Shown in pieces: positions 2,647-63,912 of a stretch of 64,000 nt of DNA. The notes beneath the pieces are model-generated. The model saw nothing but the letters and a program-made list of their open reading frames with translations. It did not search any database and was not told the origin of the DNA. The DNA is taken from the NCBI RefSeq assembly GCF_029767755.1, contig NZ_JARUQS010000001.1, positions 1,574,502 to 1,638,501 of the forward strand, in the 5' to 3' direction. The position numbers and the translations under genes were made by a program. The stretch comes from Thiomicrorhabdus sp. zzn3. Lineage in GTDB: Bacteria; Pseudomonadota; Gammaproteobacteria; Thiomicrospirales; Thiomicrospiraceae. Each line of letters opens with the position of its first letter. The stretch's first letter is position 1.

Positions 2647-3903
2647 CTAGCGCAAAGCCTGACTCAATTCTGCAGCGATGCGGTTGCGGAAATGATAATA
2701 AGGAATCGGCTCGTTCATCATCACGGCAAACGGCAGCCATTCCTGCTCCCTTTCAATGTAACCCGCCAGGGTACTCACACCGATCAGTGAACCGGACTTG
2801 GCGTAGACATACATTTCCACTTCTGGCAGCAGATGCCTCCAAGGGCGAAACGCCTCGAGCACCTCAACCAGATATTGCGGACTCAAACGGTTATTCCGGG
2901 AAAGGCCGGCGCCATCTTCCAAATAGGCGTCCCGCCAACCGAAACGGCCACTCAATTCTTTCGCAAAAAACTGCACCACTTTGTCTTCATCGGCAGGCGG
3001 GCCGTAACGCTCCGCAGCAAGCATCAGAACCAACTGATTGGCAATGAAATTAGTCGAGTACTTCATCATCGGCTCAACCACCTGAGCCAGGGTATGGCTA
3101 TTGTAATGACGATAAATCAGGCCATCAGCATTCCTATGCCTTTGCCAACGCACCCCCTCACCTATATCAACCCCTTGCCCTCGCAGAAACGCCGCCAACA
3201 GCTCGGCAAAATAGCGTTGTGCCGTTTTTGGGTCCGCACCGGTATTCACCCTCTGCGGCTGATCCATTAACGACCGTCCTAATTGCTCGGCCAGTGGCGT
3301 CAACGGGGTTTGCGGTTCCGCCGACACCACCCGGCCACTCTTTTTTTGCAAAAACACCGTATTAAAATTGGCGGCAATCGCGGATGGAATGGCATCATAA
3401 GGGTTGTCGCTATGCTGTGTGCCCGGCAACACCAAACCCTCTGAAAAATAACTCGCATCCAGCGCGATGGCATCCAACCGTTGAATCCTCAACTCGGAGA
3501 GTTTTTGTTTGAGCTGTTTAGCGACTTCAAGCAACTCTTCCGAAGTCAAAAACGGATCGCCGTAGCCTTTTACCACCAACTGATTTCGTTCGCTCGTCTG
3601 CTCTAGAAAAAAGTCGGTATGAAATCGATGCTCCGCGCCCCAATGACGCAAGGCCAGATAGGCGGTCACGAGCTTGGTGGTGGATGCCGGCACCAGAAGG
3701 CGCTGCGCAGACCGGGCCTGTAAAGTTCTCCCCTGCTCATCCAGCAGAAGCCACCCCGCCTCTTTCATTTGCGTCAATTGCGGTAGGTTTTGTAGCGCCT
3801 TCTCGATATTGGCCACCGGATTCGCCGCGGCCGCATAAGCCCACAATCCCCACACACCCAACAGGCCTGTACAAACAAGTTTGAATAAAGTTTTTACATT
3901 CAT
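2647..3903 (-). CDS. dacB: D-alanyl-D-alanine carboxypeptidase/endopeptidase (PBP4, DacB family)
   Basis: Periplasmic class C penicillin-binding protein that trims or opens peptidoglycan crosslinks. The 418-residue protein has a signal peptide (about residues 1-26), the nucleophile motif S-T-T-K at about residues 74-77, the S-T-N motif in KYSTNFIANQL, and the K-S-G motif near the C-terminus (YAKSGSLIGVSTLAGYI). All three active-site motifs are intact. It is somewhat shorter than E. coli PBP4 (477 residues). It is transcribed alone, convergent with the motility gene. A copy of the CAGGCCTG repeat lies inside the signal peptide codons. Confidence 0.93.
   Translation of the reverse strand: MNVKTLFKLVCTGLLGVWGLWAYAAAANPVANIEKALQNLPQLTQMKEAGWLLLDEQGRTLQARSAQRLLVPASTTKLVTAYLALRHWGAEHRFHTDFFLEQTSERNQLVVKGYGDPFLTSEELLEVAKQLKQKLSELRIQRLDAIALDASYFSEGLVLPGTQHSDNPYDAIPSAIAANFNTVFLQKKSGRVVSAEPQTPLTPLAEQLGRSLMDQPQRVNTGADPKTAQRYFAELLAAFLRGQGVDIGEGVRWQRHRNADGLIYRHYNSHTLAQVVEPMMKYSTNFIANQLVLMLAAERYGPPADEDKVVQFFAKELSGRFGWRDAYLEDGAGLSRNNRLSPQYLVEVLEAFRPWRHLLPEVEMYVYAKSGSLIGVSTLAGYIEREQEWLPFAVMMNEPIPYYHFRNRIAAELSQALR
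3862..3869. repeat. CAGGCCTG palindrome in the dacB signal peptide
   Basis: Context AACAGGCCTGTA. Read in the gene it gives T-G-L-L. Confidence 0.8.
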
Positions 3904-4010
3904 ATTTTTAGTTTATTGTCGAAACAGACATTTAGACCGCGCCTTTAACAGAGTTGCGCATAAAATTATCAAAAACCACCATAGCTCTTTTCTAAGCCTT
4001 CACCAACAAA

Positions 4011-4039
4011 TAAACACCCGTGTATAGAATGGTTATAAT
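4011..4039 (+). promoter_or_regulatory. Probable promoter of rsmJ
   Basis: A perfect -10 box TATAAT (4034-4039) sits 17 bp after TAAACA (4011-4016; 4 of 6 matches to TTGACA). The rsmJ start is about 57 bp downstream. Confidence 0.55.
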
Positions 4040-4095
4040 AGCCATCTTAATCACTTGCCTGCCAGGGGTTAAGCTTACCTTATTAGCTTCATCCG

Positions 4096-4953: not shown

Positions 4954-4970
4954 ATGCATCGGGTTTGCAT

Positions 4971-4998
4971 TAAAACCTAACAGGCCTGTTAAGTTTTA
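4971..4998. terminator. Bidirectional terminator built on the CAGGCCTG palindrome (rsmJ/recQ)
   Basis: A 28-bp palindrome with one mismatched pair, centred on the CAGGCCTG core at 4981-4988. The arms end in AAAA and TTTT, so either strand gives a hairpin followed by U residues (if GGCC forms the loop). It lies between the convergent stops of rsmJ (4953) and recQ (5013). Confidence 0.75.
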
Positions 4999-5012
4999 GT
5001 ATGCACAAACAA

Positions 5013-7027: not shown

Positions 7028-7474
7028 ATGAAAGACCGTATAACTCGTTGGATGGCGCCATTATTAAACACAACAGGCCTGCTGTTACTATTAATGCTGA
7101 CGGCAAACAGCCATGCTCAAGACTTTAAACCTTCCTCGCCAGTCACCGCCCTCATGCCGATTGTGATGGACAACCTGGAATTGCTTCAACTGACACCTGA
7201 ACAACTGGATCAAGTACGGGCGATTGCGCGCAGCAACTTTGCTGAAGTGGAATTTATTAATGCCAAATATCACGATATCAAAAGTGAGTTAAAAGAAAAC
7301 ACTCTGGATGGTGCAGGAGATAAAAACCACAGTTTACAGTTAATTCAGGAATTGAGCGAACTGGATAAAAAACGTATGGCGCTAACCATCGAATGTGTCT
7401 TTGGCCTCAAACAGATTCTGACGGAAGAGCAATATCAAGAAGTCATCTCACTGCTAAGCTTTCAAAATTCGTAA
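7028..7474 (+). CDS. Spy/CpxP-like periplasmic protein
   Basis: Exported protein of 148 residues with a signal peptide (hydrophobic stretch at about residues 11-30, ending near ANSHAQ). The mature part is helical and contains two L-T-x-x-Q motifs, LTPEQLDQV and LTEEQYQEV, which mark the Spy/CpxP group of periplasmic chaperones and stress sensors. A good ribosome binding site (GGGAGAG) precedes the ATG. The gene stands alone between recQ and a LysR gene. Assignment rests on the motifs and topology only. Confidence 0.65.
   Translation: MKDRITRWMAPLLNTTGLLLLLMLTANSHAQDFKPSSPVTALMPIVMDNLELLQLTPEQLDQVRAIARSNFAEVEFINAKYHDIKSELKENTLDGAGDKNHSLQLIQELSELDKKRMALTIECVFGLKQILTEEQYQEVISLLSFQNS
7074..7081. 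repeat. CAGGCCTG palindrome in the signal peptide of the Spy-like gene
   Basis: Context AACAGGCCTGCTG; read as T-G-L-L. This is the second signal peptide in the window to carry a copy. Confidence 0.8.
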
Positions 7475-10528: not shown

Positions 10529-12268
10529 ATGCACATGCGCACCCCTTTAATTGCCACCTTCATTACCTCATTGAGCCTGAGTGCGTTTACACTGGGTTTA
10601 ACCGGGTGTACCACACCCCAAAAGGCAGCAAAAGCCCCGTCCGACATCGTTCTCAGCGAAACCCCGCTCAAGCCTGCTGAGGCCATGAGCCGCGAGGAAC
10701 TGCGTGCGCAGCGTTTAAACGCACAAACTCAACAGGCCTGGTCAGATTATCTGCAACTGACCGAAGTCCTGTGGCACCAAGCCAATGACCGGGAGCAGGC
10801 TGAAATTGAACGCCAAACATGGCAAACTCTGGCGGCTGAATTTAAAGACATCCGCCGTCTTCAACGCCTGCGCCAAGCAGGCGATTTGCCCGCTCAACAA
10901 TGGGCGGACCTGCTCGAGGCGATGCAACAACCTGGACTGTACGCTTACAGCGCGTTACAGACATTAAAAGAGTGGCGACCCAACGCGATTTACCAGCACC
11001 ATTTGCTGGCCGAACTCAGCGAAACCTTCAAGCAGCCGAGCGTGAAACAGCTTGCGGTCCTGTTGCCATTGAGCGGCAAATATCAAGAGGTCGGCGAACA
11101 GATTCGTAACGGTTTGCTCAAAGCCTATATGATTTCCAACCGCCAAACGGGGGTACGTTTTTACGATACCAGTGATCCTCAGCAGGTCGTGGAACGCTAT
11201 CAACAAGCCGTGCATGAGGGCGCCGATTTTGTCGTCGGCCCACTCACCAAAGAGAGCGTCGAACGTCTGGCACAATACTTAAAACAGCAAGATGGTTTAG
11301 AAAACACGCAGACCACACAAGACGGTTCGACGGATCTAAAACCTTTCGACACCGCAAATTCCTCAACCGATTTGCCAGTAATCACCTCAAGCCCGTCAGA
11401 CCAGGGTAGCCATACGGCTCCGGTAAAAGTATTGGCGCTCAATGAAACCGAACAGGCCGGACTCAATAGCCCGCTGTTTCTCAGCTTTAACTACCGTTCG
11501 CAGACAGAAAGCCAGCAAATCACCCAACAGCTGGAAGCCAACCGCTATCAGCGCATCGGCATTCTAAGCAGTGAAATGTCCCGCGACATGAATAATGCGC
11601 AATCGCTGCTCAGCCAGTGGCTCAGCAATCCGCAGAACCAGGCGGTGTTCAAAAGCTACCCCGTGGAAAAACTTAATCTGCGCAAAGCGTTGGGCGACCT
11701 GATTAATGAAGAGGCGAGCCAGGCACGCTATAACAATCTGCGCTGGCTTTTGGGCGAGAAACTGGAGTTTTTCCCGCGTACCCGTCAAGACCTCCAAGCC
11801 ATCGTCTTAATCGGTAACGCCAAGCAAGTCGCGGTCTTCCACCCGCAGTTCGAATTTTTCCAGCTGCAACTGCCAGTGTATGCCACTTCGAACCTCACCC
11901 CGGCCAACCTACAAAAGATCGAAAACAACCCCGATCTGGCGAATGTGATCTTTCCGACCATTCCGGCGATCTTTACTCCGCATGCTCTGCAAAGTCCTCT
12001 GGAAGCCTTTGGCTGGGACAGCTTTATCCTTGCTATGCAGCACCATAAACTGGCCGATAACCTGTGTCTGAACCAGGGACAAAGCGGCATTCTCTATCGC
12101 AATCCTGACTACACCATCGATAAAAAACTGGTTTGGGCGCACTACTCACCGATCGGTCAACTGACTCGATGGGTTCCTCCACCGGAACCGCAAGAGGCGG
12201 ATGCTGAAGCGGTCAGTGATGAGAAAGCGGCTCCCCCCACCATAGAGAGGCAGCCGGTTAAACCATGA
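10529..12268 (+). CDS. lpoA: Outer-membrane lipoprotein activator of penicillin-binding protein 1a (LpoA)
   Basis: Outer-membrane lipoprotein that reaches through peptidoglycan to activate the synthase PBP1a. The 579-residue protein has a lipoprotein signal with lipobox L-T-G-C (Cys at about residue 27), a helical TPR-like N-terminal part and a C-terminal type I periplasmic-binding fold beginning near KQLAVLLPLSGKYQEVGEQIRNGLL. A low-complexity Thr/Ser/Asp insert lies inside the binding fold (about residues 258-300). It overlaps yraN by 4 bp, as expected for the conserved lpoA-yraN pair. The start is M1 or M3; no strong ribosome binding site is seen. Confidence 0.9.
   Translation: MHMRTPLIATFITSLSLSAFTLGLTGCTTPQKAAKAPSDIVLSETPLKPAEAMSREELRAQRLNAQTQQAWSDYLQLTEVLWHQANDREQAEIERQTWQTLAAEFKDIRRLQRLRQAGDLPAQQWADLLEAMQQPGLYAYSALQTLKEWRPNAIYQHHLLAELSETFKQPSVKQLAVLLPLSGKYQEVGEQIRNGLLKAYMISNRQTGVRFYDTSDPQQVVERYQQAVHEGADFVVGPLTKESVERLAQYLKQQDGLENTQTTQDGSTDLKPFDTANSSTDLPVITSSPSDQGSHTAPVKVLALNETEQAGLNSPLFLSFNYRSQTESQQITQQLEANRYQRIGILSSEMSRDMNNAQSLLSQWLSNPQNQAVFKSYPVEKLNLRKALGDLINEEASQARYNNLRWLLGEKLEFFPRTRQDLQAIVLIGNAKQVAVFHPQFEFFQLQLPVYATSNLTPANLQKIENNPDLANVIFPTIPAIFTPHALQSPLEAFGWDSFILAMQHHKLADNLCLNQGQSGILYRNPDYTIDKKLVWAHYSPIGQLTRWVPPPEPQEADAEAVSDEKAAPPTIERQPVKP
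10733..10740. repeat. CAGGCCTG palindrome in lpoA
   Basis: Context CAACAGGCCTGGTCAG, read as Q-Q-A-W-S. Confidence 0.8.
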
Positions 12269-12657
12269 AAGCGTTCAAATCGATCAAACAACGCCTTGCC
12301 AGCAAACTGATTGGTCGAGAAAAAGAGCGCCAAGTAGCCGATTGGTTACAGAGCCAGCAGGTTGAAATCATTGAAAGCAACTATCTATGCCGTGGCGGTG
12401 AGATTGACCTGATCGGCTACCAGGCCTGTTCAAACTCCTTGATCTTTTTTGAAGTCAAATACCGCCAATCCACCGACTTTGGCCATCCTCTAGAGCTGGT
12501 GACCTCAGCGCAATGGCAGCGCATTTACCGCTGTGCCGAACAGTTTTTGCTGCGCCACCCCAACTATCAGGACTGCCAAATGCAATTTGACCTGATTGCT
12601 TTGACGGAAGACCAAACCGTTCCACTGCGCATTGAAAACGCCTACGGCCAGTTTTAA
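12265..12657 (+). CDS. YraN family endonuclease-like protein (UPF0102)
   Basis: Protein of 130 residues with the restriction-endonuclease-like core of the YraN/UPF0102 family: GREKERQVADWLQSQQVEIIESNY, then RGGEIDLIGYQ and FFEVKYRQSTDFGHP, in which E, D and the ExK pair mark the putative nuclease site. The cellular role is unsettled. Its ATG overlaps the lpoA stop by 4 bp, so the two are translationally coupled, and a DedA-type membrane gene follows after 11 bp. Confidence 0.9.
   Translation: MKAFKSIKQRLASKLIGREKERQVADWLQSQQVEIIESNYLCRGGEIDLIGYQACSNSLIFFEVKYRQSTDFGHPLELVTSAQWQRIYRCAEQFLLRHPNYQDCQMQFDLIALTEDQTVPLRIENAYGQF
12421..12428. repeat. CAGGCCTG palindrome in yraN
   Basis: Context ACCAGGCCTGTTCAAAC, read as Y-Q-A-C-S. 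Confidence 0.8.
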
Positions 12658-13109: not shown

Positions 13110-13168
13110 GCTTTTTGCTTGGCGATCCCTTTTTCCATAAGATTGGCTGATTCATTGTGGAAAAGCAA

Positions 13169-13176
13169 CAGGCCTG
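13169..13176. repeat. CAGGCCTG palindrome between yqaA and ppsA
   Basis: Intergenic copy in the convergent gap, context AACAGGCCTGTTCAAAT. The palindrome does not extend beyond 12 bp here. Confidence 0.85.
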
Positions 13177-13276
13177 TTCAAATGAGACCTGTCCACCTTA
13201 AAAGCAAACATAATCGGTTTATTTTCAATGCGATAGAAACAAAACCCCATTCAAGAGCTCGTAAATTTAAGATCTT

Positions 13277-20844: not shown

Positions 20845-20870
20845 CAAACTGAACAGGCCTGTTCAGTTTG
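20845..20870. terminator. 26-bp perfect palindrome with CAGGCCTG core (GGDEF-EAL/addA gap)
   Basis: Perfect inverted repeat over 26 bp, centred on CAGGCCTG at 20854-20861. The arms begin CAAACTGAACA and the loop would be GGCC. It lies in the 53-bp gap between two convergent stops, so a bidirectional terminator is the simplest role, although the T-run is only three bases. Confidence 0.75.
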
Positions 20871-20887: not shown

Positions 20888-23800
20888 CTAATTGAGCTCC
20901 ACCCAGCGATCCATATCGGTAAAATACAGTACCCATTTCTGGGCACGGCTCCGGCCCGCGGCACGGTCTATTTCGGCAAGCAGCTTTCCATAGCGCTCCA
21001 GTTGTGGACGATAGACCTCAACCTGTTTCTCGACAAACGCATCCACCTTCTCTGCGGCATCGCTGGCCAAGTGACTGGTTTTGTAATCGACAATCCAGCG
21101 CACCTCTCCCTCATCCACAAAGGTGCGGTCCACAATGTGGTTGGCCACCCCATCGTCTTCCAGCGACGTCAATGGATATTCGCACTGAGCTTCACGGTGT
21201 TTCTGATCCAAAGCCCATACCAGCTTCGCGTTGCCGCGTGCGTGCGTCAGGGAACGCAGTACCCGTTCAATCGCCTGTTCCAATAAGGTGCCTTCCACCC
21301 CCTGATTACGCAGCCAGTAACGATAAAAAGGCAACTGTTCACGCACCTCTGGCCAACTTTCCAGACTCGCCCACTGCTCCAACACCAGGTGCACCAGATT
21401 CCCCACCGACGTATTCAATAACGCCTGTTCTGGCGAACTCTCATAGAACGCAGCGTCCGGTGCACTGGCGCTCAATGCAACCGGCTTGGAAGCCGTCGGT
21501 GTCTCGTCCGGTTTTTGCACGGCCGCGCTATGCCGCTCGGAGGCAAACGTCAACTGATCCAATAAATAAGCGCGTTGCAATGGCAAACGCCGGATTTTGG
21601 GCGCAAACTCAAACGCCTCGATCGCTTCATCCACTTCGTCATAGTCGGCCGCCAACTTCACAAAGTCGTTTTGCACGCAGGGCCAAAGCGCTTCCAGCAG
21701 GCTGCCTGAATTGGGCAGAGGACGCGGACTTTCCTCCCTGTCGGAAATGCGGTAACGCACCTCGCCAAACAGATGCAGCTGACGCTTGGCCCGGGTGGCG
21801 GCCACATAGAGCAGGCGACCCAACTCATAATCCTGCTTTTCCTGCTCAAAGCGTCTCAGCAGGCCTGTCAGCAAAGAGTCTCCCTGCCCCTTCTGGTCGA
21901 GCGGCGCCATCACCAGCCATTCGCGCATAGTTTGTGCGTCAGTTTTCACTTCTGTTTGCGGCCCAAGAAACGACATCCATGACAGCAGCTGCTTGTCGTC
22001 GGAACGCGGCTTGCGCCCCAAGCCCGGCAAAATGACCGTATCGAATTCCAGCCCTTTGGATTTGTGCATCGTCATCAATTCAATACGCTGGCTTTCCTGG
22101 GCAGCATCGGGGCTGGCGTAAAGATTGGCAATCATCTCTTCCAGACGTTGAGCGTCCACCACTTCACCATCCAAGCCGGCAAGGGTTTCCCAGAACACGG
22201 TGACATTATCCAAAGCCGTCTGGTTTTCTACGCTATGCGCACCGTCAAGTTGCAACCAGCATTCACGTACCAGCAGCGAAAACGGCATACTGCCCAGACG
22301 CTGCAATGCGGTGTGCAAAACAGGCAAGGCAAATGCCAGCCGTTGACGAGCCCTTTCGCTCAGGCTCTCCGGCCACTGTTTCGGCTGAATCTGTTGCCAG
22401 GCGGGGGTCGAAAAATGTTCGCCCAGCAGCGCATGCAGGTCCGGCAGATTCAAGCCGACCAGCGGCGAACGCAATAACGCAATCCACGCCGGACGGTCCG
22501 CCAAATGCAGTAAAGCGCGGCTTAAGGCCAAGACATCCTGAATCTCCTGACGCTCCGCCAAGCCTTCCAGCTCCACCGCACGGAATCCGATCTCCTGCTG
22601 TTTCAGCAAGCTCGCGATCGTCATCAGACTGGAACGCGTGCGCCCCAGTACGGCGATTTTGGCCGCCGAGTCCAACTCGCGCAAACGCTGTTTGATCAAC
22701 TGCACCACGTCCACCGCTTCACTTTCCGCAGTTTGGTTGAGTTGCCAATGGGTAAACACCGCCGGTGTGTCATCTTCGGAGGACGCCAAAGAGTCGCTGT
22801 AACACACCGCCCCGCTGGCGATCCGGTTCTGTTTTGGAAAGACCTGTTTGAATTGGCGATTGACCCAATCGATCACTGCCCGGCTGGAACGGAAGTTCAC
22901 CTGCAGGTTCAACGGCGTCAGCTGTACATCACCGATGCGTCCCTGCCAGGCATCCAAAAAGTTGCCTACTTCCGCTTCGCGGAAACGATAGATGGACTGC
23001 ATCGGATCCCCGACGATAAACAGGGTACGGGCATCTCCAGGCTGCCAACCGGCTACCAGTTTGCGAATCAAGGCATACTGTTCACGACTGGTGTCCTGAA
23101 ACTCGTCCACCAACAGATGTTCGATGCGATAATCTAGATGTTGCGCCAGTTCGGTCGGTTCTTCTTCACGGCCGAGCGCCTGCGAGGCCGCTTGGGCAAT
23201 TTCGATAAAATCCGCTTCTCCGCCATGACGAAACGCCACCTTGAGGTAAGCCGCCGCCATTTTCAACAGATGAATCAATGATTGCAGACTCTGCCACTGC
23301 TCGTCACTGTAATGTGGTTCGGGCAGGCCTTTGAGCACCGCCAGACTCAGACGAACTTGCTCGGCATCAGGTGCATCGCGCAGTCCGGCCAAGGCATTGA
23401 CAAAGCGCTCCTTGTTCTCTTTGGCTGCTCCTTTTCCGGCAGGAAAACCGTTATTTTTGGTGACCGATTTACGAATCTGATCCTGGCCGGTTAACAGCCA
23501 GTCCGCCAGACTGCGCCAGGCGGCGAGCGAGTCAATACCATTGCCCAGTTCACCAGCGCACAGGGGTTGCAGGTTCTCGGCGCCATTGGCGCGCGCATAA
23601 TCGGCCAACTCGGCGGCTTCAGTCAATAAAGCGCGCACCGCACTCAAATGCGCCAATTGGCTTTGCATCTCCTGCTCGACTACCAATTGCAACGCCCATT
23701 CCAGCTCGTCGCGCGCGGCCTCGTCCTGAACGGATAACAAATTCTGCATCCACTGATCGCGCTTGCCGAGCATACTTACAATCAACGCCTCGGCGCGTTG

Positions 23801-27429: not shown

Positions 27430-28308
27430 CTACGACGTCTGCAAAAACCCGATCAGTTCGGGACCTTGTTGGCGCAGCCAGCGTTTGGCCTGTTGGGTTT
27501 GAGGATAATGATGGGCCACCAACGCCCAGAAATGGGCGGAATGGTTGGCGTGAACCCGGTGACACAGTTCGTGCACAATCACATAATCGATCACCCAGGC
27601 AGGCGCTTGCAGCAAGCGCCAGTTAAATTGAATACGACCGTCCGGGTAACAACTCCCCCAGCGTGACTTATAGCCTTTGACGGTGATCGAGGCGTAATCG
27701 ACGCCGATGCGTTGCGCCCACACCAACACCTCGCTCTCAAAATAATGCCGCGCCTGCTCACTAAACCACTCCTGCAACACTCGCTGCCGAACGGGCTGCA
27801 TGCTCTGCGCTTCAAGCGTCCCCTCCGGAGACAACATCGTTTCATCCAGGGTAAATCTGAGCAGGCCTGATGATTCGCTATCGGCCGAGTCCGTCCGGTT
27901 ATCATCGCTCCCTTCTCCTTGCAGCAGCCGATCCTGGTTTACGAGCTCCGCCATAAACCGGTCGCCCGTTTGCCAAAGCAAGCGATAGGTTTGCCCCTGA
28001 AAACGCACCGCTTCTCCACTCAGGGCATAGAATGGTGACACCGGCGTCAACGAGAGAGTTTCCAATTTGCGGCCAATCCACGAGGCATGTTGATCCAATA
28101 CTTTTTGCAGGGCGCGTTCGGAGAGGTGACGCGGTACATGCAGTTCCACGCCCTGCGCTTTGGGCTTGAGACCGATCGACTTTTTGCGTGACGTACGCAC
28201 CACCGGCAACCACTGTTCACCGACCTGGTAATGGCGGATTCCTTCAGCCGAAGCGCTCTTCTCTATTCTGCGTGGCACCTGGCGTCTCCAACGAAACATT
28301 TTTTTCAT
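27430..28308 (-). CDS. YgjP-type zinc metallopeptidase (DUF45/M48-like)
   Basis: Protein of 292 residues of the YgjP group. The C-terminal half contains the zinc site: VIDYVIVHELCHRVHANHS (H-E-L-x-H with a downstream His) preceded by GYKSRWGSCYPDGRIQFNWRL, the family's most conserved stretch. The N-terminal part has the typical KKSIGLKPKAQGVELHVP strand region. Substrate unknown. Two ATG codons lie at 28308 and 28299; the AAGGG ribosome binding site is better spaced for the second. It is divergent from the pseudouridine synthase gene. Confidence 0.88.
   Translation of the reverse strand: MKKMFRWRRQVPRRIEKSASAEGIRHYQVGEQWLPVVRTSRKKSIGLKPKAQGVELHVPRHLSERALQKVLDQHASWIGRKLETLSLTPVSPFYALSGEAVRFQGQTYRLLWQTGDRFMAELVNQDRLLQGEGSDDNRTDSADSESSGLLRFTLDETMLSPEGTLEAQSMQPVRQRVLQEWFSEQARHYFESEVLVWAQRIGVDYASITVKGYKSRWGSCYPDGRIQFNWRLLQAPAWVIDYVIVHELCHRVHANHSAHFWALVAHHYPQTQQAKRWLRQQGPELIGFLQTS
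27862..27869. repeat. CAGGCCTG palindrome in the ygjP-like gene
   Basis: Read in the gene as S-G-L-L. Confidence 0.7.
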
Positions 28309-30890: not shown

Positions 30891-30898
30891 CAGGCCTG
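30891..30898. repeat. CAGGCCTG palindrome between the exonuclease and histidine phosphatase genes
   Basis: Intergenic, context CTCAACAGGCCTGGTCAAAT. Confidence 0.85.
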
Positions 30899-39091: not shown

Positions 39092-39117
39092 AAACTGAGC
39101 AGGCCTGCTGCGTTTTT
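39092..39117. terminator. CAGGCCTG-centred hairpin between the pyruvate kinase-like gene and ggt
   Basis: Core at 39100-39107 in an inverted repeat of about 24 bp with two mismatched pairs, starting CAAACTGAG and ending CGTTTTT. It follows the pyruvate kinase-like stop (39206), on whose strand the T-run is not at the 3' side, so read as a terminator it would work best on the plus strand; on the minus strand the tail is only TTTG. Confidence 0.45.
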
Positions 39118-41292: not shown

Positions 41293-41300
41293 CAGGCCTG
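41293..41300. repeat. CAGGCCTG palindrome upstream of the RMD1 family gene
   Basis: Intergenic, context ATCAGGCCTGCTCAAAACAG, in the divergent gap. Confidence 0.8.
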
Positions 41301-42186: not shown

Positions 42187-42194
42187 CAGGCCTG
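42187..42194. repeat. CAGGCCTG palindrome after the RMD1 family gene
   Basis: Intergenic, context CTCAACAGGCCTGTTCTCTG, 21 bp past the stop, in a convergent gap. Confidence 0.85.
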
Positions 42195-45649: not shown

Positions 45650-45657
45650 CAGGCCTG
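45650..45657. repeat. CAGGCCTG palindrome upstream of lemA
   Basis: Intergenic, context CTGAACAGGCCTGGTTAATT, between divergent genes and 59 bp before the lemA start. Confidence 0.85.
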
Positions 45658-46829: not shown

Positions 46830-46837
46830 CAGGCCTG
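46830..46837. repeat. CAGGCCTG palindrome after the DUF3392 gene
   Basis: Intergenic, context CCGAACAGGCCTGCTCAATGG. A partial copy (GGACAGGCCGTTCACC) begins 6 bp later, so this is a tandem of one full and one degenerate copy. Confidence 0.85.
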
Positions 46838-51193: not shown

Positions 51194-52246
51194 ATGACAA
51201 CACGCTGTACCGTTCCGGCCAAACTGATTCTCAGCGGTGAACACGCAGTACTCTACGGTGTGCCCGCTCTCAGCCTGGCGATCGATCTGCCTACACGCTG
51301 TACCATCGAACACCTGCCGACAACGGATGCCCAAACTACTCCGCTTTCCTTCACGGCCAATCTCACAGATTTCGCCCAATCCAAAACGCTTTCCGCGGAG
51401 CAATGGCTAACGCGTGTTGACGAGATTAAACATCGTTTCAAGCTGTTTAAACAGGGAAAGCTATCCATCGATCAGGTTTTAAAAACGCCTTTTGACCTTA
51501 TCTGGGTCACTTTGGATGCGTTTTATCAACACCACCACCTGGCCTCTGGCACCTGGAAGATTCATATTGAATCCGATTCTTTGATCGGACGGGGCCTGGG
51601 GAGCTCTGCGGCGGTCATCGTCAGCTTGCTTTCAGCTCTTAAAACACAGCACGGTCTGGCATTATCCAAACAGCAATTGCTGTCGCTCTCTAAAGAGGTG
51701 GAGACTTACCAACACGGCCGTTCCAGCGGAGTGGATCCGGCCACCTTGATCTATGCTGGTCTGCTCAAATATCGCATGGATGCCGAACCGGTACCACTGG
51801 CACAGACCTCATCCCTTCCGCTACCAGCTTGGCTGATTGATACCGGCAGACCGCAAAGCGGCACCGGCGAGTGCGTCGAATTCGTAAAACGCTTTACTGA
51901 CGATGCCAACCTATGGGGATCCTTTGCTCAGGTGGAGGAGCAAATTGAACAGGCCTGGTCAGAAAACAATGCTGCCGGATTAAAAGAAGGCATCCGTATG
52001 AATCAACGTTTGTTAAAGCAGGTTGGTGTCGTCCCGAACTCCATCGATGGTTTCATTCAACGCTTGGAAAACGACTATGATGCGGCAGTCAAAGTCTGCG
52101 GTGCCGGTGCCATCTATGGTGCCAGTGCCGGCATTCTGCTCTGTTTGAGCGACCAAGATCCGACAGAGCTTTGTCAGCAGAACCACTACCGCTGCTATCG
52201 GATTCAGTCTCAAAGCCACGGAGTGCAATGTGAAACCCTCAATTAA
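51194..52246 (+). CDS. mvk: GHMP kinase, probable mevalonate kinase
   Basis: ATP-dependent kinase of 350 residues. GHMP motifs: CTVPAKLILSGEHAVLYGVPAL (motif 1, shortened here by first residues), GRGLGSSAAVIVSLL (phosphate-binding motif 2) and KVCGAGAIYGASAG near the C-terminus (motif 3). HGRSSGVDPATLIYAG holds the catalytic-type Asp. Motif 1 with G-E-H-A-V-x-Y-G is typical of mevalonate kinase. The ATG at 51194 follows GAGGAAA. The next gene overlaps by 17 bp and also looks like a mevalonate kinase, so which of the two is the phosphomevalonate kinase is not certain. Confidence 0.85.
   Translation: MTTRCTVPAKLILSGEHAVLYGVPALSLAIDLPTRCTIEHLPTTDAQTTPLSFTANLTDFAQSKTLSAEQWLTRVDEIKHRFKLFKQGKLSIDQVLKTPFDLIWVTLDAFYQHHHLASGTWKIHIESDSLIGRGLGSSAAVIVSLLSALKTQHGLALSKQQLLSLSKEVETYQHGRSSGVDPATLIYAGLLKYRMDAEPVPLAQTSSLPLPAWLIDTGRPQSGTGECVEFVKRFTDDANLWGSFAQVEEQIEQAWSENNAAGLKEGIRMNQRLLKQVGVVPNSIDGFIQRLENDYDAAVKVCGAGAIYGASAGILLCLSDQDPTELCQQNHYRCYRIQSQSHGVQCETLN
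51950..51957. repeat. CAGGCCTG palindrome in mvk
   Basis: Context TTGAACAGGCCTGGTCAGAA, read as E-Q-A-W-S. Confidence 0.85.
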
Positions 52247-53267
52247 AGAACCGTTCGACAACTGGATCAGCCGCGCTCCCGCCAACCTCATGCTGCTCGG
52301 CGAACACAGCGTAGTCTACGGCCAACCCGCGTTGGCGTGCAGCGTGGACCGTTTTATTGAAATGGAGTGGCAACGCACGGACGACAGTATCATCTGCATC
52401 GATTCCGCTCTTGGGCAATACAGTTTTACCCTCACGGAACTGAAAAACGAGAGTAGCAAACTGGATCACCCCAAGCTACGCTTTGTGCTGCATGCGTTAA
52501 AAACCTTTGCCGGCGATCTTGAGCACGGTTTGCAAATTGAGATCCGCAGTGAATTTTCAGATACCATCGGGTTAGGCAGTTCCGCCGCAGTCCTCGCCGC
52601 GACGCTGGTCGGGCTAAACCAAATCACCCAACTGAATCATGACCTGGCCGCCCTGTTTGCGCTGGGGCACCAAATTATTCTGCAAATTCAAGGACGTGGT
52701 TCCGGCACGGATCTGGCGGCGAGCCTCAACGGCGGTGTGCTGTTTTTCGAACCTCAAAATTCGAACAGGCCTGCTCAATTTCACTCCATCGAACAACATC
52801 CGCTTGAACGGATCACGCTGATTTACAGCGGTTACAAGACCTCAACCGCCGAGGTATTGCAGCATGTCGCCGAACATTGGCAGTCACAGCCCGATTTACT
52901 GGAGCAACTTTATGCGTTGATGGGCAACACCACACGTCAAGCCATGCAGGCGTTGACTGAAGGGCAGTTCAAGGAGTTTTTTGCACTGTGCAACGTCTAT
53001 CAAGGATTGATGGATGCTTTGGGGGTTAGCGACGCAACTCTGTCACAACTGGTTTATCAACTGCGCGCCAGAAATAACATTCAGGCCGCCAAAATTTCCG
53101 GTTCCGGGCTGGGTGACTGCGTCATCGGTTTCGGCAGCCTGGATACTCACAACGCGCCGAGCTCTCAATCTAATCCTCTTTTAAACGATTACTTACAGCT
53201 TGACGTTGGAGTCACGCCTGTTGGCGCCCACTGTGACCCTCTGACGACAAAACGTTCAGCTGACTAA
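52230..53267 (+). CDS. GHMP kinase, probable phosphomevalonate kinase
   Basis: Kinase of 345 residues, a paralogue of the preceding gene. Motif 1 is SRAPANLMLLGEHSVVYGQ, motif 2 TIGLGSSAAVLAATL, then QGRGSGTDLAASLNGGVLFF and motif 3 AAKISGSGLGDCVIGFG. By elimination it should supply the phosphomevalonate kinase step, and RGSGTDLAAS is closer to that group than the equivalent in the first kinase. However, motif 1 is of mevalonate kinase type. It starts at GTG after GGAGTG, inside the last 17 bp of the previous gene, so translation is coupled. Confidence 0.75.
   Translation: MKPSIKEPFDNWISRAPANLMLLGEHSVVYGQPALACSVDRFIEMEWQRTDDSIICIDSALGQYSFTLTELKNESSKLDHPKLRFVLHALKTFAGDLEHGLQIEIRSEFSDTIGLGSSAAVLAATLVGLNQITQLNHDLAALFALGHQIILQIQGRGSGTDLAASLNGGVLFFEPQNSNRPAQFHSIEQHPLERITLIYSGYKTSTAEVLQHVAEHWQSQPDLLEQLYALMGNTTRQAMQALTEGQFKEFFALCNVYQGLMDALGVSDATLSQLVYQLRARNNIQAAKISGSGLGDCVIGFGSLDTHNAPSSQSNPLLNDYLQLDVGVTPVGAHCDPLTTKRSAD
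52766..52773. repeat. CAGGCCTG palindrome in the second GHMP kinase gene
   Basis: Context TCGAACAGGCCTGCTCAATT, read as N-R-P-A-Q, the only copy in this frame. Confidence 0.85.
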
Positions 53268-53299: not shown

Positions 53300-54337
53300 A
53301 TGAAAGACTTCTCTCAAAGCGCCTCACTTTCGCCACAAGCTTTTGTCAACCAGGTGATTGGTCACCGTAGCGGTGTGAATGCCTTCAGCCAAGCCAAAAG
53401 CCGCGGTTTTGGCGAAGCGCCGGTCAATATCGCTTTAAGCAAATACTGGGGAAAACGGGAAACCTCCCTCAACCTGCCGATTAATGGCAGCGTTTCCATC
53501 AGCTTACCGGGCCTGGGCACCCAGACAGAACTGGCGCTTTCCGAGGGAAAACACGACCAAATCGTGCTCAACGATCATACGCTTGAACCGCACGCAGCCT
53601 TTGCTCAGCGCTTGAGTCGTTTTTTGAACCTGTTTCGCCCGACAGAACACACCATTTTCCAGGTCGACACCCATAACACGGTACCCACGGCGGCCGGACT
53701 GGCATCCTCCGCCTCCGGCTACGCCGCCCTAGTACTGGCCCTGGACGACCTGTTCCAATGGCAATTGTCCACAGACAAGCTCTCTTTGCTGGCCCGACTT
53801 GGCAGTGGCAGCGCCTGCCGCTCACTCTATCCGGGGTTTGCTATTTGGCACCGCGGTGAGCGCAGTGATGGATTGGACAGCTATGCAGAAGCGATCGACA
53901 CCACTTGGCCCGATCTGTGTATTGGCTTACTCAAAGTGGATATTGGCGAAAAAGCCGTAGGCTCTACCGTCGGCATGCAGCAAACCGTAGAAACCTGTGA
54001 ACTCTACCAGGCCTGGCCGGAACAAGCGGAAAACGATCTGAAAAGCATCCAAGCCGCCATTCTTGAGCAGGATTTTGAACGTCTTGGACAAACGGCAGAA
54101 CACAACGCCATGAGCATGCACGCGACCATGATGGCGACTTGGCCGCCTATCCTATACTGGCAACCGGAATCAGTAGCGGCCATGCAACAGGTTTGGCAAC
54201 TTCGCCAGCAGGGAGTTGCGGTCTACTTCACCATGGATGCCGGACCGAACCTAAAACTGTTGTTCCTAAAACAAGAAAAGCCTGCAATTATGCAGGCTTT
54301 TGGAAAGATTGACGTCATTGAACCGTTTGCAATTTGA
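53300..54337 (+). CDS. mvaD: Diphosphomevalonate decarboxylase
   Basis: Converts mevalonate diphosphate to isopentenyl diphosphate. The 345-residue protein has all signature blocks: VNIALSKYWGKRETSLNLP near residue 40, TAAGLASSASGYAALVLAL near residue 130, GSGSACRSLYPGFAIW, HNAMSMHATMMATWPPI and YFTMDAGPNLKLLF (catalytic Asp). It closes the mevalonate cluster. A perfect hairpin lies inside its last codons (see the terminator entry). Weak ribosome binding site, 32 bp after the second kinase stop. Confidence 0.95.
   Translation: MKDFSQSASLSPQAFVNQVIGHRSGVNAFSQAKSRGFGEAPVNIALSKYWGKRETSLNLPINGSVSISLPGLGTQTELALSEGKHDQIVLNDHTLEPHAAFAQRLSRFLNLFRPTEHTIFQVDTHNTVPTAAGLASSASGYAALVLALDDLFQWQLSTDKLSLLARLGSGSACRSLYPGFAIWHRGERSDGLDSYAEAIDTTWPDLCIGLLKVDIGEKAVGSTVGMQQTVETCELYQAWPEQAENDLKSIQAAILEQDFERLGQTAEHNAMSMHATMMATWPPILYWQPESVAAMQQVWQLRQQGVAVYFTMDAGPNLKLLFLKQEKPAIMQAFGKIDVIEPFAI
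54008..54015. repeat. CAGGCCTG palindrome in mvaD
   Basis: Context ACCAGGCCTGGCCGG, read as Y-Q-A-W-P. Confidence 0.7.
54276..54301. terminator. Perfect hairpin inside the end of mvaD
   Basis: AAAAGCCTGCA (54276-54286) and TGCAGGCTTTT (54291-54301) form an 11-bp perfect stem with a 4-nt loop and a terminal T-run. It lies 36 bp before the mvaD stop and works in both directions, so it can end mvaD transcription early or stop antisense reading from the sspB side (sspB ends at 54368). Confidence 0.7.
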
Positions 54338-55762: not shown

Positions 55763-56425
55763 ATGACAACACAGACCGATCACGCTTATACACTGCTTCG
55801 CATTGACGCCAGTGCACAAGCAAACGATGCATCACAATCCAAAAAGCTGGCCGACCGTTTTCAACAGGCCTGGTTAAAACAACATCCCGAAGGGCAAGTC
55901 ATTCATCACAACCTGGCCGACATGTCCCTGAAACATATCAACTCGGACTTTATCGGCGCCATGTACACCCCCGAAGCACAACGCAATGATGCACAAAAAC
56001 AGATCTTGGCCGAATCGGATCAGTGGGTAGCAGAACTGAAAAACGCCGATGCTCTGGTGATCAGTACACCGATGTATAACTTTTCCATTCCCTCTTATCT
56101 GAAAAGCTATCTGGATACGGTGACGCGAGTTGGAGAGACGTTCCGCTATGGTGAAAACGGACCAGAAGGATTACTTAATATTCCCAAAGTGGCAGTGATC
56201 ATGACTTCAGGTGGTGACTACACCCAGCCACCCTTGGATGCGATGAACTTTGTCACCCCTTATCTGCAAACGGTCTTGAGCTTCAACGGCCTGGATAACG
56301 CCATAATGATTGAAGCCCCTGGCATGAATATGGGAGGCGAAAAACAATTGCAGGGACTGAAACACGCCGAAGAGCAGATTGATCAGCTGTTTAACGAACC
56401 GTTAAATTCGCGTCAGTCGGCTTAG
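55763..56425 (+). CDS. azoR: FMN-dependent NADH-azoreductase/quinone reductase
   Basis: Flavodoxin-fold enzyme of 220 residues that reduces azo compounds and quinones with NADH. The AzoR features are LLRIDASAQANDASQSKKLADRF (phosphate loop of FMN, shown in part), LVISTPMYNFSIPSYLKSYLD and VIMTSGGDYTQPPLDAMNFV. AGGAAAA precedes the ATG. Its stop overlaps the stop of epmA by 4 bp in tail-to-tail arrangement. The likely role is detoxification of quinones; regulation may involve the upstream inverted repeat. Confidence 0.9.
   Translation: MTTQTDHAYTLLRIDASAQANDASQSKKLADRFQQAWLKQHPEGQVIHHNLADMSLKHINSDFIGAMYTPEAQRNDAQKQILAESDQWVAELKNADALVISTPMYNFSIPSYLKSYLDTVTRVGETFRYGENGPEGLLNIPKVAVIMTSGGDYTQPPLDAMNFVTPYLQTVLSFNGLDNAIMIEAPGMNMGGEKQLQGLKHAEEQIDQLFNEPLNSRQSA
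55865..55872. repeat. CAGGCCTG palindrome in azoR
   Basis: Context CAACAGGCCTGGTTAAAAC, read as Q-Q-A-W-L. Confidence 0.8.
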
Positions 56426-59083: not shown

Positions 59084-60661
59084 CTATTCCAAACCGTATT
59101 TGGCTTTAAAACCGCAATTCCCCTGCGGCAACCAAGCCGGCCCCGTATAGTATTTTTCATACACCGGTTCGAGTATCTTTTCCCGATAATAAGCGTAGTT
59201 AAACTTCTGTCCTGTTACCAGATAATAGATCACGCTGGCATCGCCGCTTTTAAGCGGCTTCAATGCCGTTACGTTTAGAGATTCAAAAAACGGTTCGATT
59301 TTTTTCAGGTCTTTCTGACTCGTTACAAATAGAGTTAAGTCGGTGCCATCCAGAGCCTTGAAATCGGTCAACTTATCGTCTTCGCGGCCGTATTTGGAGC
59401 GACTCATAAACACATGAATATCGTCGTTACCGCAGTAGTAAGCCAAGGTGGATTGACTGCTGTAATCCAAGGTAAACAGCGTCTGTTGCGGCAGTTGCTC
59501 GCACACTTGTTCGGTCTGCAGATACAATGCCACCTGATGCTGCTGCGCCGGCGACACCACCCGTTCCACAAACGGCAACAGCCCCAGCAGCACCGCCGCG
59601 ATCAGCAGCGACGACACCCCGTTAAACACCAGCAAGCCCTTAAGTCTGGCGGATGACAATCCGGCATACAACAGATACAGAATTGGGATGGAAAGCAGCG
59701 GCCAGTGCAAGCCGACCGGATTGGAGAGACTCACCACCAACAAGACCAACAATAGCGGCAAGGCAGCATAGAGTACCAGCGGCTGTAGCCAGGCCTGCTC
59801 ACTTTTAGCAAAGCTGCGATACGCCTTTTCTTTGACCCAGTCATAAACGCCTTTTGGCGACAGCATCGCGATCAACATCGCAATCAAAACCGCGGTATTG
59901 GTCAAGTCAATCTCGCTGTCACGGGTGCGCGAAAAGAAGTTAAACAGAACATTGTTCCAGCAGTGCGTCCAGTTAAACCACAGGTTTTCGGCGACAAACG
60001 CGAGTACGATCAGCGCCATCACCAATGGGCGCTTCCAGCCGTAACGGCGCGCATAGACCACACTGAAAACCAACAGGCCTGCCAGCATAAAGGCGGCGAA
60101 GTACTTGGACAAAAACGCCAAGCCTAAAAATAGTCCGCCCCACAAAACCGGCCACAATGACGAACTGTGCAACGCGCGTGCAAAGAAGTAGAAACCGAGC
60201 ATGGCGAACAGCGCCAGTACGGTGTCATTGGCATTAATGACAAACATCAAGGAGACCGGCGAAACAAAAAACGCCAGCGCCACGTAGAAAGCGCGTTTGG
60301 CGGTGGCATGACCCACGCCCGAATGGTTGTCTTGCGGAACAAAAACCAGCAGGCGATAAAGCAGCCAACTCATCAATACCGAAGCCGCAAAGGCAAAACC
60401 TCGGTAGACATAAAGATGATCGCCAAGCTGACTCAAGACGGCATTGACCCAGCCGACAGCCGGCGGATGATCGTAATGCCCCCAAGCGGGATTTTGCCCC
60501 CACCAGATAAAGTAGGCCTCGTCTCCGGTCAGCGGAATCCACACCAGCAATGCGACTTTCAAGACAATAAACGCCCCGATCAAACGCTTTTCAAAAACGG
60601 ACAGGCCTGCCCAAAGTTGAGCCTTGGAAGGAGAGGCTAAGGAAGAATCGGAACGCACCAC
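59084..60661 (-). CDS. GT-C family polyprenyl-sugar glycosyltransferase (GT39/PMT_2-like)
   Basis: Integral membrane protein of 525 residues with about ten hydrophobic segments and a C-terminal periplasmic part. The N-terminal catalytic loop has TGDEAYFIWWGQNPAWGHYDHPP, where Asp-Glu and His-Tyr-Asp-His are the hallmark of ArnT/PMT-like enzymes that use lipid-linked sugars. It starts at GTG behind AAGGAATC, 6 bp after the PAP2-like gene, so it belongs to the ubiA operon. Given the arabinose-precursor genes around it, it is a candidate arabinosyltransferase, but the sugar and acceptor are not proven. A repeat variant (CAGGCCTA) overlaps its stop. Confidence 0.85.
   Translation of the reverse strand: MVRSDSSLASPSKAQLWAGLSVFEKRLIGAFIVLKVALLVWIPLTGDEAYFIWWGQNPAWGHYDHPPAVGWVNAVLSQLGDHLYVYRGFAFAASVLMSWLLYRLLVFVPQDNHSGVGHATAKRAFYVALAFFVSPVSLMFVINANDTVLALFAMLGFYFFARALHSSSLWPVLWGGLFLGLAFLSKYFAAFMLAGLLVFSVVYARRYGWKRPLVMALIVLAFVAENLWFNWTHCWNNVLFNFFSRTRDSEIDLTNTAVLIAMLIAMLSPKGVYDWVKEKAYRSFAKSEQAWLQPLVLYAALPLLLVLLVVSLSNPVGLHWPLLSIPILYLLYAGLSSARLKGLLVFNGVSSLLIAAVLLGLLPFVERVVSPAQQHQVALYLQTEQVCEQLPQQTLFTLDYSSQSTLAYYCGNDDIHVFMSRSKYGREDDKLTDFKALDGTDLTLFVTSQKDLKKIEPFFESLNVTALKPLKSGDASVIYYLVTGQKFNYAYYREKILEPVYEKYYTGPAWLPQGNCGFKAKYGLE
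59790..59797. repeat. CAGGCCTG palindrome in the glycosyltransferase gene (1)
   Basis: Context GCCAGGCCTGCTCACTTTT; read in the gene as S-E-Q-A-W-L. Confidence 0.8.
60074..60081. repeat. CAGGCCTG palindrome in the glycosyltransferase gene (2)
   Basis: Context CAACAGGCCTGCCAG; read in the gene as A-G-L-L. Confidence 0.75.
60602..60609. repeat. CAGGCCTG palindrome in the glycosyltransferase gene (3)
   Basis: Context GGACAGGCCTGCCCAAAG; read in the gene as W-A-G-L-S. Three copies in 1.6 kb is the densest run inside one gene. Confidence 0.75.
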
Positions 60662-61099: not shown

Positions 61100-61125
61100 G
61101 TTCGCTTTACCTCTCCATCATGCGA

Positions 61126-62022: not shown

Positions 62023-62125
62023 GACAATTATTGAACCTTGGATAAACCGTGAACAGCCTCGTTCGCAGCGACTCTTTTCATGTATTGCCGCAAAATGCGC
62101 AAAGAGCCTGCAAAGAACCATCACT

Positions 62126-62533
62126 ATGAAGATTGCGCTAATTTACACGATTTTTGCGGTCATCGCCACCGCCGCCAACATTCTCAGCCAGGATATCACC
62201 CTGCGACTTTACAGCGGTCTGTATACGATCACCCTCTCCATTCTCGTCGGAACTGCGGTCGGCCTGGTGGTAAAGTATGTCCTGGACAAAAAATACATCT
62301 TCCAATATCAAACCCAAAACCTGCAACACGACAGCCGCACGTTCATGCTCTATAGCTTGATGGGCGTGTTGACCACGGTCATTTTCTGGGGCTTTGAGTT
62401 CGGCTTCGACGCACTGTTTGCCACCAAAGAGATGCGCTACCTCGGCGGCGTCATCGGCTTGGCGATCGGCTACTTTATCAAATACCAGCTCGACAAACGT
62501 TTTGTATTTGTCCACAAGGAAGCCACCCCATGA
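62126..62533 (+). CDS. GtrA family membrane protein
   Basis: Protein of 135 residues with four membrane segments, the size and pattern of GtrA-like flippase-type proteins (ILSQDITLRLYSGLYTITLSI; VGLVVKYVLDKKYIF; GFALFATKE-type loop; GYFIKYQLDKRFVF). In mycobacteria the GtrA-like Rv3789 lies beside dprE1 and was linked to flipping or delivering decaprenyl-phosphoryl-arabinose. It overlaps dprE1 by 4 bp. The ATG at 62126 starts the first membrane segment; the ribosome binding site is weak. Confidence 0.85.
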   Translation: MKIALIYTIFAVIATAANILSQDITLRLYSGLYTITLSILVGTAVGLVVKYVLDKKYIFQYQTQNLQHDSRTFMLYSLMGVLTTVIFWGFEFGFDALFATKEMRYLGGVIGLAIGYFIKYQLDKRFVFVHKEATP

Positions 62534-63912
62534 CGCCACTCTACAATCAGCTTCCTCAGCAGAGCGTCAGCGGCTGGGGACAGTATCCGAAAATGGAATC
62601 GGTACAGATTGCCGTGCACTCCAAACGCAAAATCCGCGAACTGTTTTCAGAGACGAAACGCAACGGCCTCGACCAATATGGCTTGATCACCCGCGGTCTT
62701 GGCCGCAGTTACGGTGACAGCGCTTTGGCCGAGCAGATTCTGCACACCGAACACCTCAACCATTTTATGCAATTTGATGCCGACAGCGGCGACTTGACCT
62801 GTGCCGCCGGCGTCACCTTGGCGGACATTCTGGACATTTTCGTGCCGCGCGGCTGGTTTCTGCCTGTCACCCCCGGCACCAAATTCGTTACCGTCGGCGG
62901 CGCCATTGCCAGCGACGTCCACGGCAAAAACCATCATCTTCACGGCTGCTTCAGCGAGCACGTTTCCTCCTTGAAACTGGTCGTTGCTTCCGGCGAAGTG
63001 ATGTCCTGTTCACCGCAGGAAAACGCCCCGCTGTTTCATGCCACTTGCGGCGGCATGGGACTGACCGGGGTGATTGTTGAAGCCACCTTGAGGTTGATTC
63101 CGATTGCAAGTGCACTGATTGCCGAATCGAGCTATAAAACCGCCAATCTGGAAGAGACGCTGACGCTGTTTGAAGAACACGACAACGCCACCTATTCCGT
63201 GGCCTGGATCGACTGTCTGGCCACCGGCAAAAAACTGGGGCGTTCGCTGCTGATGCTGGGCGAGCATGAAAGCCGTGAAGAAGCGGTTAAAGAAGAACAA
63301 TCTCAGGAATCAGCACTGCAAGCCCACAAAAACGGCAAAATGAACGTGCCCATAAATATGCCGTCGATGCTGCTAAACCGCTACTCCATCCAGGCGTTCA
63401 ACACCCTCTACTACCACAAGCAGACGCGCACCCATCAAACCCGCAGCGTGCATTACGATCCCTACTTCTATCCGCTGGACGGTCTGCATAACTGGAACCG
63501 CCTCTATGGCAAAAACGGCTTTGTGCAATATCAGTTCGTCATTCCAAAGTCGGCAGGCCTGGTCGGTATGAGCCGCATTCTGGAAGCGATTACCCGCTCC
63601 AAACGTGGTTCGTTTCTGGCGGTACTCAAAGCCTTCGGCCCGCAAAATCAGAACTATTTGAGCTTCCCGGTGGAAGGCTATACTCTGGCACTCGACTTTA
63701 AAATCTCACCAGGCCTGTTTGAATTTCTGGACGAGCTGGACCGCATTGTGCTCGATTGCGGCGGACGCCTCTATTTGACCAAAGACGCTCGCATGTCCGA
63801 AGCCACCTTCAAACAGAGTTATCCGCAATGGGAAGTGTTTCAGGAAGTGCGCAGCCAATACGGTGCCGACCGTCTGTTCCGTTCACGGCAATCGCAACGT
63901 CTTGGACTGTAG
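62530..63912 (+). CDS. dprE1: Decaprenylphosphoryl-beta-D-ribose 2'-oxidase (DprE1 type)
   Basis: FAD enzyme that oxidises the 2'-OH of polyprenyl-phosphoryl-ribose, the first half of ribose to arabinose epimerisation. The 460-residue protein has ITRGLGRSYGDSAL (about residue 53), PVTPGTKFVTVGGAIASDVH followed by GKNHH, HATCGGMGLTGVI, and LYLTKDARMSEATF, with Lys418 in the active-site position. The residue equivalent to mycobacterial Cys387 is Ala387 (GYTLALDF). It overlaps gtrA by 4 bp and is followed 53 bp later by a dprE2-type gene, the expected partner. Confidence 0.92.
   Translation: MTPLYNQLPQQSVSGWGQYPKMESVQIAVHSKRKIRELFSETKRNGLDQYGLITRGLGRSYGDSALAEQILHTEHLNHFMQFDADSGDLTCAAGVTLADILDIFVPRGWFLPVTPGTKFVTVGGAIASDVHGKNHHLHGCFSEHVSSLKLVVASGEVMSCSPQENAPLFHATCGGMGLTGVIVEATLRLIPIASALIAESSYKTANLEETLTLFEEHDNATYSVAWIDCLATGKKLGRSLLMLGEHESREEAVKEEQSQESALQAHKNGKMNVPINMPSMLLNRYSIQAFNTLYYHKQTRTHQTRSVHYDPYFYPLDGLHNWNRLYGKNGFVQYQFVIPKSAGLVGMSRILEAITRSKRGSFLAVLKAFGPQNQNYLSFPVEGYTLALDFKISPGLFEFLDELDRIVLDCGGRLYLTKDARMSEATFKQSYPQWEVFQEVRSQYGADRLFRSRQSQRLGL
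63554..63561. repeat. CAGGCCTG palindrome in dprE1 (1)
   Basis: Context GGCAGGCCTGGTCGG, read as S-A-G-L-V. Confidence 0.7.
63710..63717. repeat. CAGGCCTG palindrome in dprE1 (2)
   Basis: Context ACCAGGCCTGTTTGAATT, read as P-G-L-F. Confidence 0.75.

Follow-up and report, generated by a model that had tools for sequence, protein, structure and literature searches.

A 64,000-bp stretch of the genome of Thiomicrorhabdus sp. zzn3 (contig NZ_JARUQS010000001.1, positions 1,574,502 to 1,638,501; hereafter the window) is studded with copies of one palindromic octamer, CAGGCCTG, and the question raised by this locus is what has spread, and what maintains, so many copies of a single short word. It is proposed here that CAGGCCTG may represent the core of an uptake-signal-like sequence of the family, spread by biased DNA uptake, a reading to which we assign a probability of roughly 0.48. 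The iterated element and its dialects are real and strong, and among the genomes sampled they were met in the family of Thiomicrorhabdus only. Uptake is considered the likeliest function of the element; a receptor, preferential uptake and the resulting drive are predicted from sequence data.

A first-pass annotation of the window had listed 29 exact copies of CAGGCCTG, all of which were confirmed at their exact coordinates, and had assumed that an octamer should occur about once by chance, in agreement with a mean of 0.92 (largest 4) in 100 dinucleotide-preserving shuffles. Under an order-2 Markov model, no octamer of the window is more over-represented than CAGGCCTG (58 versus 4.1 expected on both strands, z 26.6). 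The excess extends across the 2.37-Mb genome of the strain (designated G000, with G numbers also used for the other genomes compared), which contains 859 copies versus 21 for the reversed control, and across a 324-kb sample composed of the window and thirteen stretches of 20 kb, where 123 copies were found versus 8.3 expected. Neither a genome-wide count close to expectation nor an enrichment limited to the window, both named beforehand as refuting outcomes, was thus observed. Massive genome-wide over-representation is a property of uptake sequences, while a highly iterated, GC-rich palindrome is typical of the highly iterated palindromes (HIPs, including HIP1) of cyanobacteria, and both descriptions apply to CAGGCCTG.

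The octamer forms the centre of a larger element. Symmetric profiles around the 123 sites sampled in G000 define a palindrome of approximately 24 bp, AAACTGAA-CAGGCCTG-TTCAGTTT, whose flanks are conserved at positions -8 to -1 and not from -9 outwards, i.e., with a sharp edge, and in which an A-tract is located about one helical turn from the element centre (A at -8 to -6 reaching 0.49-0.57 versus 0.25). A is likewise raised in G021 and G018 (both at -7 and -6) and in G023 (-8 to -6), despite the differing inner flanks of these genomes. The wider flank context reported by the first-pass annotation is real, and its tally of 19 copies with AA before or TT after the core was reproduced (19/29), but it constitutes only one side of this longer symmetric consensus. 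The flanks in the window seemed to be oriented in one direction on the + strand, and chromosome polarity was considered as an explanation and rejected: the oriented 14-mer AACAGGCCTGGTCA, which encloses the cores at 10733..10740 and 30891..30898, is present 29 times forward and 16 times reverse in G000, with 18 forward and 9 reverse copies mixed along contig C1 (positions of the replication origin and terminus not mapped). Chi sites are likewise an over-represented octamer, and the present element is similar in its octamer excess, yet it differs in its palindromic (hence symmetric) core, its long flanks and its dialects.

Of the 62 family genomes, 32 contain 236-1173 copies of CAGGCCTG and the remaining 30 contain 0-74. 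Genomes with at least 236 copies (referred to as motif-rich) account for 15 of the 32 in the window's genus, seven of eleven in genus g18 (G059 being a motif-poor genome of this genus), all nine in g21, the single genome of g22 and none of the nine in g17, g19 and g20 together, while the largest count outside the family, to which 365 of the 369 class genomes sampled belong, is 338, in 4.1 Mb. The motif-rich label requires two changes on a single-gene tree, versus 7.7 in shuffles, with none of 500 shuffles as low; this tree comprises 30 phosphoenolpyruvate synthase-like proteins, of which 23 rows are labelled and seven not counted, with no usable row for G005 or G009. Gains and losses of the motif can be read only tentatively from this tree, which represents one gene, has long branches for G018 and G010, and counts as motif-poor two genomes, G023 and G020, which have other spellings. 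No comparable motif was detected in 40-120 kb samples of G003, G010, G012, G013, G019 and G024, or in 20 kb each of G053, G054 and G059, samples from which a weaker motif could escape; G001 and G005, represented by less than 10 kb, do not bear on this comparison. Two of these samples contain repeats of another kind: one with TCCGCGGCTAGG, present in 28 copies in 20 kb of G053 (C1:1-20000, L293), is probably a CRISPR (clustered regularly interspaced short palindromic repeats) array, and one with CGCCTTACCCCT has six copies within 20 kb of G059 (C1:1-20000, L295).

Other spellings of the element include TTTACCAGGCCTGGTAAA, TTGACCAGGCCTGGTCAA, TTTACCGGCCGGTAAA (one species) and the asymmetric ACCCGGCCTGTTGAGTTTTTT. 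In samples of 20-100 kb, TTACCAGGCCTGGTAA was found in G008, G021, G014 and G015, TGACCAGGCCTGGTCA in G018 and AACAGGCCTGTT in G017, while the dialect of G041 is looser, with G or A adjoining the core. A genome-wide replacement is found in G023, in which CCGGCCGG is present 47 times in 100 kb and ACCGGCCGGT reaches 1025 copies genome-wide, compared to 0-15 in the 61 other family genomes, while CAGGCCTG is present only 12 times; the half-site TTTACCGG of this genome equals TTTACCAGG minus one base. In G020, which groups with G000, G041 and G017 on the single-gene tree, the asymmetric ACCCGGCCTGTTGAGTTTTTT is found, and a 140-kb sample contains 20 matches to the pattern NCCGGCCTGTTS, of which 11 are coding and 9 intergenic. 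This asymmetric form stands at the aligned places of two palindromes of the window, both between convergent genes, i.e., the 24-bp element at 13161..13184 (core 13169-13176) and the perfect 24-bp palindrome AAACTGAACAGGCCTGTTCAGTTT at 20846..20869 (core 20854), the latter being represented in G020 by the CCGGCCTGTTGAGTTT dialect. Judged by eye, the dialects follow the single-gene tree, as is expected of uptake sequences.

The placement of the sites was analysed using coding and intergenic calls from a crude open reading frame (ORF) caller. Intergenic sites make up 40 of the 123 in G000, versus 13.3 expected (3.0-fold, p 8e-11), and the other 83 are coding, with 36, 41 and 6 in frames 0, 1 and 2, respectively. 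Densities per kb amount to 3.47 between convergent genes, 1.21 between tandem genes, 0.50 between divergent genes and 0.29 in coding DNA. Between-gene enrichment of 1.96-3.55-fold was observed in five other genomes, in four of which divergent density is 0-0.40/kb. For the window itself nine intergenic copies had been claimed, a number that fell to 7 of 29 with this ORF caller (ORFs of at least 60 amino acids); for example, the core at 42187..42194 lies between convergent genes, those at 39100..39107 and 46830..46837 between tandem genes, and that at 41293..41300 between divergent genes. The high density at convergent gene ends, together with an element that is self-complementary in sequence and bears A and T ends, would suit dispersed bidirectional transcription terminators, in line with the terminator reserve proposed by the first-pass annotation. 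This proposal holds, at most, for the density at convergent ends: the coding sites, which make up the greater part of the G000 sample and would in any case be unexplained, exhibit the same flank pattern as the intergenic sites, albeit weaker, while the G020 form is not self-complementary and yet is found at both coding and intergenic places. Terminators are consequently regarded as a very unlikely explanation of the element.

When the window was aligned, with gaps allowed, to syntenic stretches of related genomes, individual sites proved to have been retained in two of them above the control level. CAGGCCTG is identical at 4 of 11 aligned places in G017 and at 5 of 12 in G041, versus 4.0% and 7.2%, respectively, for permuted octamers (Fisher p about 0.001 each), and at 0/8 in G020, 0/4 in G019 and 0/2 in G023. 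For example, two cores are located in the ORF at 20888-24463(-), of which that at 21860..21867 is identical in G017 and G041, and that at 24021..24028 in G017, G041 and G008; the core at 26921..26928, in the ORF at 24460-27243(-), is identical in G017, G041 and G014, that at 28528..28535 in G017 and that at 51950..51957 in G041, in which CAGGCCTG is also found at the place aligned with the 24-bp element at 4973..4996 (core 4981-4988, between convergent genes). Furthermore, one-mismatch cores with strong flanks, which are read as decayed sites, number 15 in 444 kb of G000, where about 1 would be expected, and 21 in pooled stretches of six other genomes, where fewer than 1 would be.

Sites are also rare on one plasmid-like contig. 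G018:C2 (96.8 kb) holds 5 sites in the 60 kb sampled, compared to 49 in 100 kb of chromosome, i.e., approximately sixfold fewer (p 3e-6); it is taken as a plasmid on the grounds that its ORFs, read by eye rather than by family search, resemble genes for replication, ParA/ParB and a thin pilus. In G000, contigs C4 and C5 carry 2 sites in 21 kb (p 0.014), which constitutes weak evidence. On G018:C2 (L273-L274), the thin-pilus-like genes adjoin genes for long repeat proteins of the FNQPIGSWNTS type, and the two may form a surface module. The over-representation and dialects, the sites kept in the closest relatives, the decayed copies and the scarcity on a plasmid-like contig are all consistent with a spread of the element through the exchange of chromosomal DNA.

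GGCC and AGGCCT are restriction-type sites, and a palindrome with such a centre might be a restriction-modification or orphan methylation site. Several motif-rich genomes do carry methyltransferase matches (e.g., PF00145 in G018, G008, G042, G002, G006, G005 and G007; PF01555 in G000). No match to PF00145, PF01555 or PF02086 was found, however, in seven motif-rich genomes, G009 (86% complete) and G014, G017, G021, G023, G040 and G041 (99% or more complete), PF02384-type enzymes of type I/IIG not being included in the search, and no enzyme from these three families is common to the genomes of the genus. Moreover, the G023 core CCGGCCGG is devoid of adenine, and CAGGCCTG is enriched, although avoidance would be expected of a restriction site. 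The earlier suggestion of a methylation site as cause is thus contradicted for the families searched, and such an origin is highly improbable. The sole PF01555 match of G000 lies at C1:1303927-1304880, in a 1125-residue frame, and 9 of the 32 genus genomes have any match to this family. The word TCCGGA, which served as the reversed control for AGGCCT, is all but missing from G016 (20), G042 (24) and G022 (31) and frequent in G044 (1343), a scarcity in some genus genomes that appears as if the word were avoided, perhaps as a result of restriction.

The same absence of matches bears on a further possibility, namely that CAGGCCTG is a functionless, HIP-like by-product of a repair or mutation bias which creates and protects the palindrome, as in Elhai's model with another enzyme. 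The palindrome, its density and its exchange for another GC-rich palindrome recall HIP1 and the alternate HIPs of cyanobacteria, where a very frequent palindromic octamer is sometimes replaced in this manner (PMC4390886). In addition, the single clearly enriched one-mismatch neighbour, TAGGCCTG/CAGGCCTA (3.0-fold, others 0.6-1.5-fold), deviates at the outer base, as described for HIP1. The relevant sections of PMC4390886 state, however, that HIPs are generally accompanied by matching methyltransferases, of which none from the three families searched is common to the motif-rich genomes here, and that HIP extensions span one to two bases per side, compared to eight, with an A-tract, in the present element. 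The conservation of flanks over 24 bp, the scarcity of sites on a plasmid-like contig within the same assembly, the intergenic enrichment and the asymmetric dialect of G020 also argue against such a by-product, which we regard as unlikely. The analogy with uptake sequences and HIP1 made in the first-pass annotation has proved apt, with uptake as the best-supported reading, but a HIP1-type link to methylation did not hold for the families searched.

An abundant intracellular dimeric DNA-binding protein, such as a chromosome organiser or segregation factor, for which some 900 sites would be kept by selection, might also account for the symmetry and sharp edges of the 24-bp element, in keeping with the chromosome-organising protein suggested by the first-pass annotation. 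A positive correlation between half-site scores was obtained in G000 (0.27, shuffled standard deviation 0.09), G018 (0.51) and G021 (0.48), i.e., clearly in three of six genomes, as well as in G014 (0.56, on 13 sites), while the values for G008 (0.25) and G023 (0.18) are not clearly above shuffles; part of this correlation may stem from the pooling of coding with intergenic sites. Slightly under-dispersed counts per bin (variance-to-mean ratio 0.80-0.98, without a significance test), rarity on one plasmid-like contig and the low divergent intergenic density, G023 excepted, would also suit such a protein. Against it stand the motif-poor state of 30 of the 62 family genomes, the lack of strict strand polarity of AACAGGCCTGGTCA, and the genome-wide respelling in G023 and the asymmetric form in G020, the last two being hard to reconcile with a protein needing that many sites. 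This explanation is judged improbable.

According to the uptake reading, a putative DNA receptor on the cell surface, probably part of a type IV pilus and competence system, would prefer fragments carrying the 24-bp element, with its GGCC centre, its lineage-specific inner flank and its A/T-tracts one helical turn out, which may ease bending. Motif-bearing fragments would enter the cell and recombine into the chromosome at a higher rate, and copies arising by point mutation would spread and be restored by homologous replacement (molecular drive), piling up where they are compatible with coding and regulation, particularly at convergent gene ends. Drift in receptor specificity would then be followed by genome-wide spelling, giving rise to dialects. 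Part of an uptake machinery exists in the genus, with no correspondence to the motif: 28 of the 32 genus genomes, motif-rich and motif-poor alike, have ComEC, with the ComEC/Rec2 protein of G000 passing the equivalog cut-off, and pilin-like proteins were found in all nine genomes compared, with eight chromosomal matches each in motif-rich G018 and motif-poor G019. A pilin receptor was sought among the N_methyl pilins of these nine genomes without yielding a candidate. For the orphan pilin of G000 (L302), whose neighbours we take to be xerC and hslV genes, no clear equivalent is apparent among the listed pilins of motif-rich G018.

Several observations weigh against uptake. The presence of ComEC does not follow that of the motif, and motif-rich G005 (82% complete) is without a match; nor is any set of N_methyl pilins specific to the motif-rich genomes among the nine compared. 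Near-miss excess is essentially confined to TAGGCCTG/CAGGCCTA, unlike the graded excess described for the DNA uptake sequence (DUS) and the uptake signal sequence (USS) (PMC1939737). Unlike DUS and USS, the core is palindromic in the dialect of G000 as in the other main ones, with asymmetry in G020, and the half-site correlation in G000, G018 and G021 suits a symmetric dimer. Depletion was observed on a single plasmid-like contig, and second-contig status alone does not imply depletion, because density is normal (0.36/kb) on the 443-kb second contig of G015. Site conservation has been demonstrated in G017 and G041 only, CAGGCCTG being identical at 1/4 aligned places in motif-rich G014, 0/3 in G042, 0/3 in G021 and 1/4 in G008. 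Divergent intergenic density in G023 is 1.64/kb (4 sites), i.e., not low, and CAGGCCTG is absent from the loci of Thiomicrorhabdus marina and Hydrogenovibrio sp. JE_KL2 (22 kb each), the former being the nearest relative, at 74% identity, of a window protein among 80 named loci, from which very near records may be excluded. The motif-poor state of these named relatives and the failure of G023 divergent regions to be spared slightly lower the odds of the uptake reading.

Among proven systems, the USS of Pasteurellaceae shares with the element its many genome-wide copies in and between genes, a strong core flanked by AT-rich segments that are spaced at about a helical turn, and subclade-specific variants, as described in parts of PMC1626085 and PMC1939737; it is most closely resembled by the G020 form, in which an asymmetric core is followed by a T-tract. 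The window element is different in being palindromic in dialects other than that of G020, in sequence and family, and in that its uptake role is a prediction only. The DUS of Neisseriaceae, as far as covered by the sections of PMC3630211 concerned, similarly has dialects that fit phylogeny, family members without an obvious motif, and an indel-type dialect, wadDUS, comparable with that of G023; it differs in being a non-palindrome with mostly more copies (943-5918 listed) and a proven uptake effect. Proteins that co-vary with dialect have been compared in the case of ComN (PMC12616744). Because DUS and USS are non-palindromic, the window element is not filed with either, though it may work like one. 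It is conceivable, albeit with less assurance than uptake as such, that a further uptake-signal family evolved independently, with a palindrome read by a symmetric receptor, some thousand sites respelled in G023 and an asymmetric form placed at a relative's palindromes in G020. In the open-access literature searched, CAGGCCTG was not found as a whole word, nor was any report found of an uptake sequence or signal in Thiomicrospira or of natural transformation in Thiomicrorhabdus, and in one Thiomicrospira paper (PMC6501319) palindromes were mentioned solely within the name CRISPR. To our knowledge, proven uptake signals are known from Neisseriaceae and Pasteurellaceae only.

The other CAGGCCTG cores of the window, all exact matches and, like those above, without strand, are located at 3862..3869, 7074..7081, 12421..12428, 26093..26100, 27862..27869, 28981..28988, 45650..45657, 52766..52773, 54008..54015, 55865..55872, 59790..59797, 60074..60081, 60602..60609, 63554..63561 and 63710..63717. 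The window also contains, at 49938-51101, an HMG-CoA synthase-like gene (PF08540, PF01154), which suggests a mevalonate-type pathway; such a pathway is unusual for Gammaproteobacteria.

If uptake is not the function, the family would possess a HIP-like element without a shared methyltransferase, and the generality of the leading explanation for HIPs would be weakened. If uptake is the function, there would be a new receptor to find, and it might be predicted which species exchange genes. A palindromic dialect system in another family would allow an independent check on whether uptake bias is sufficient to build such motifs, and, if this family of signals did arise independently, the birth and drift of signals of the DUS and USS type would be open to study.

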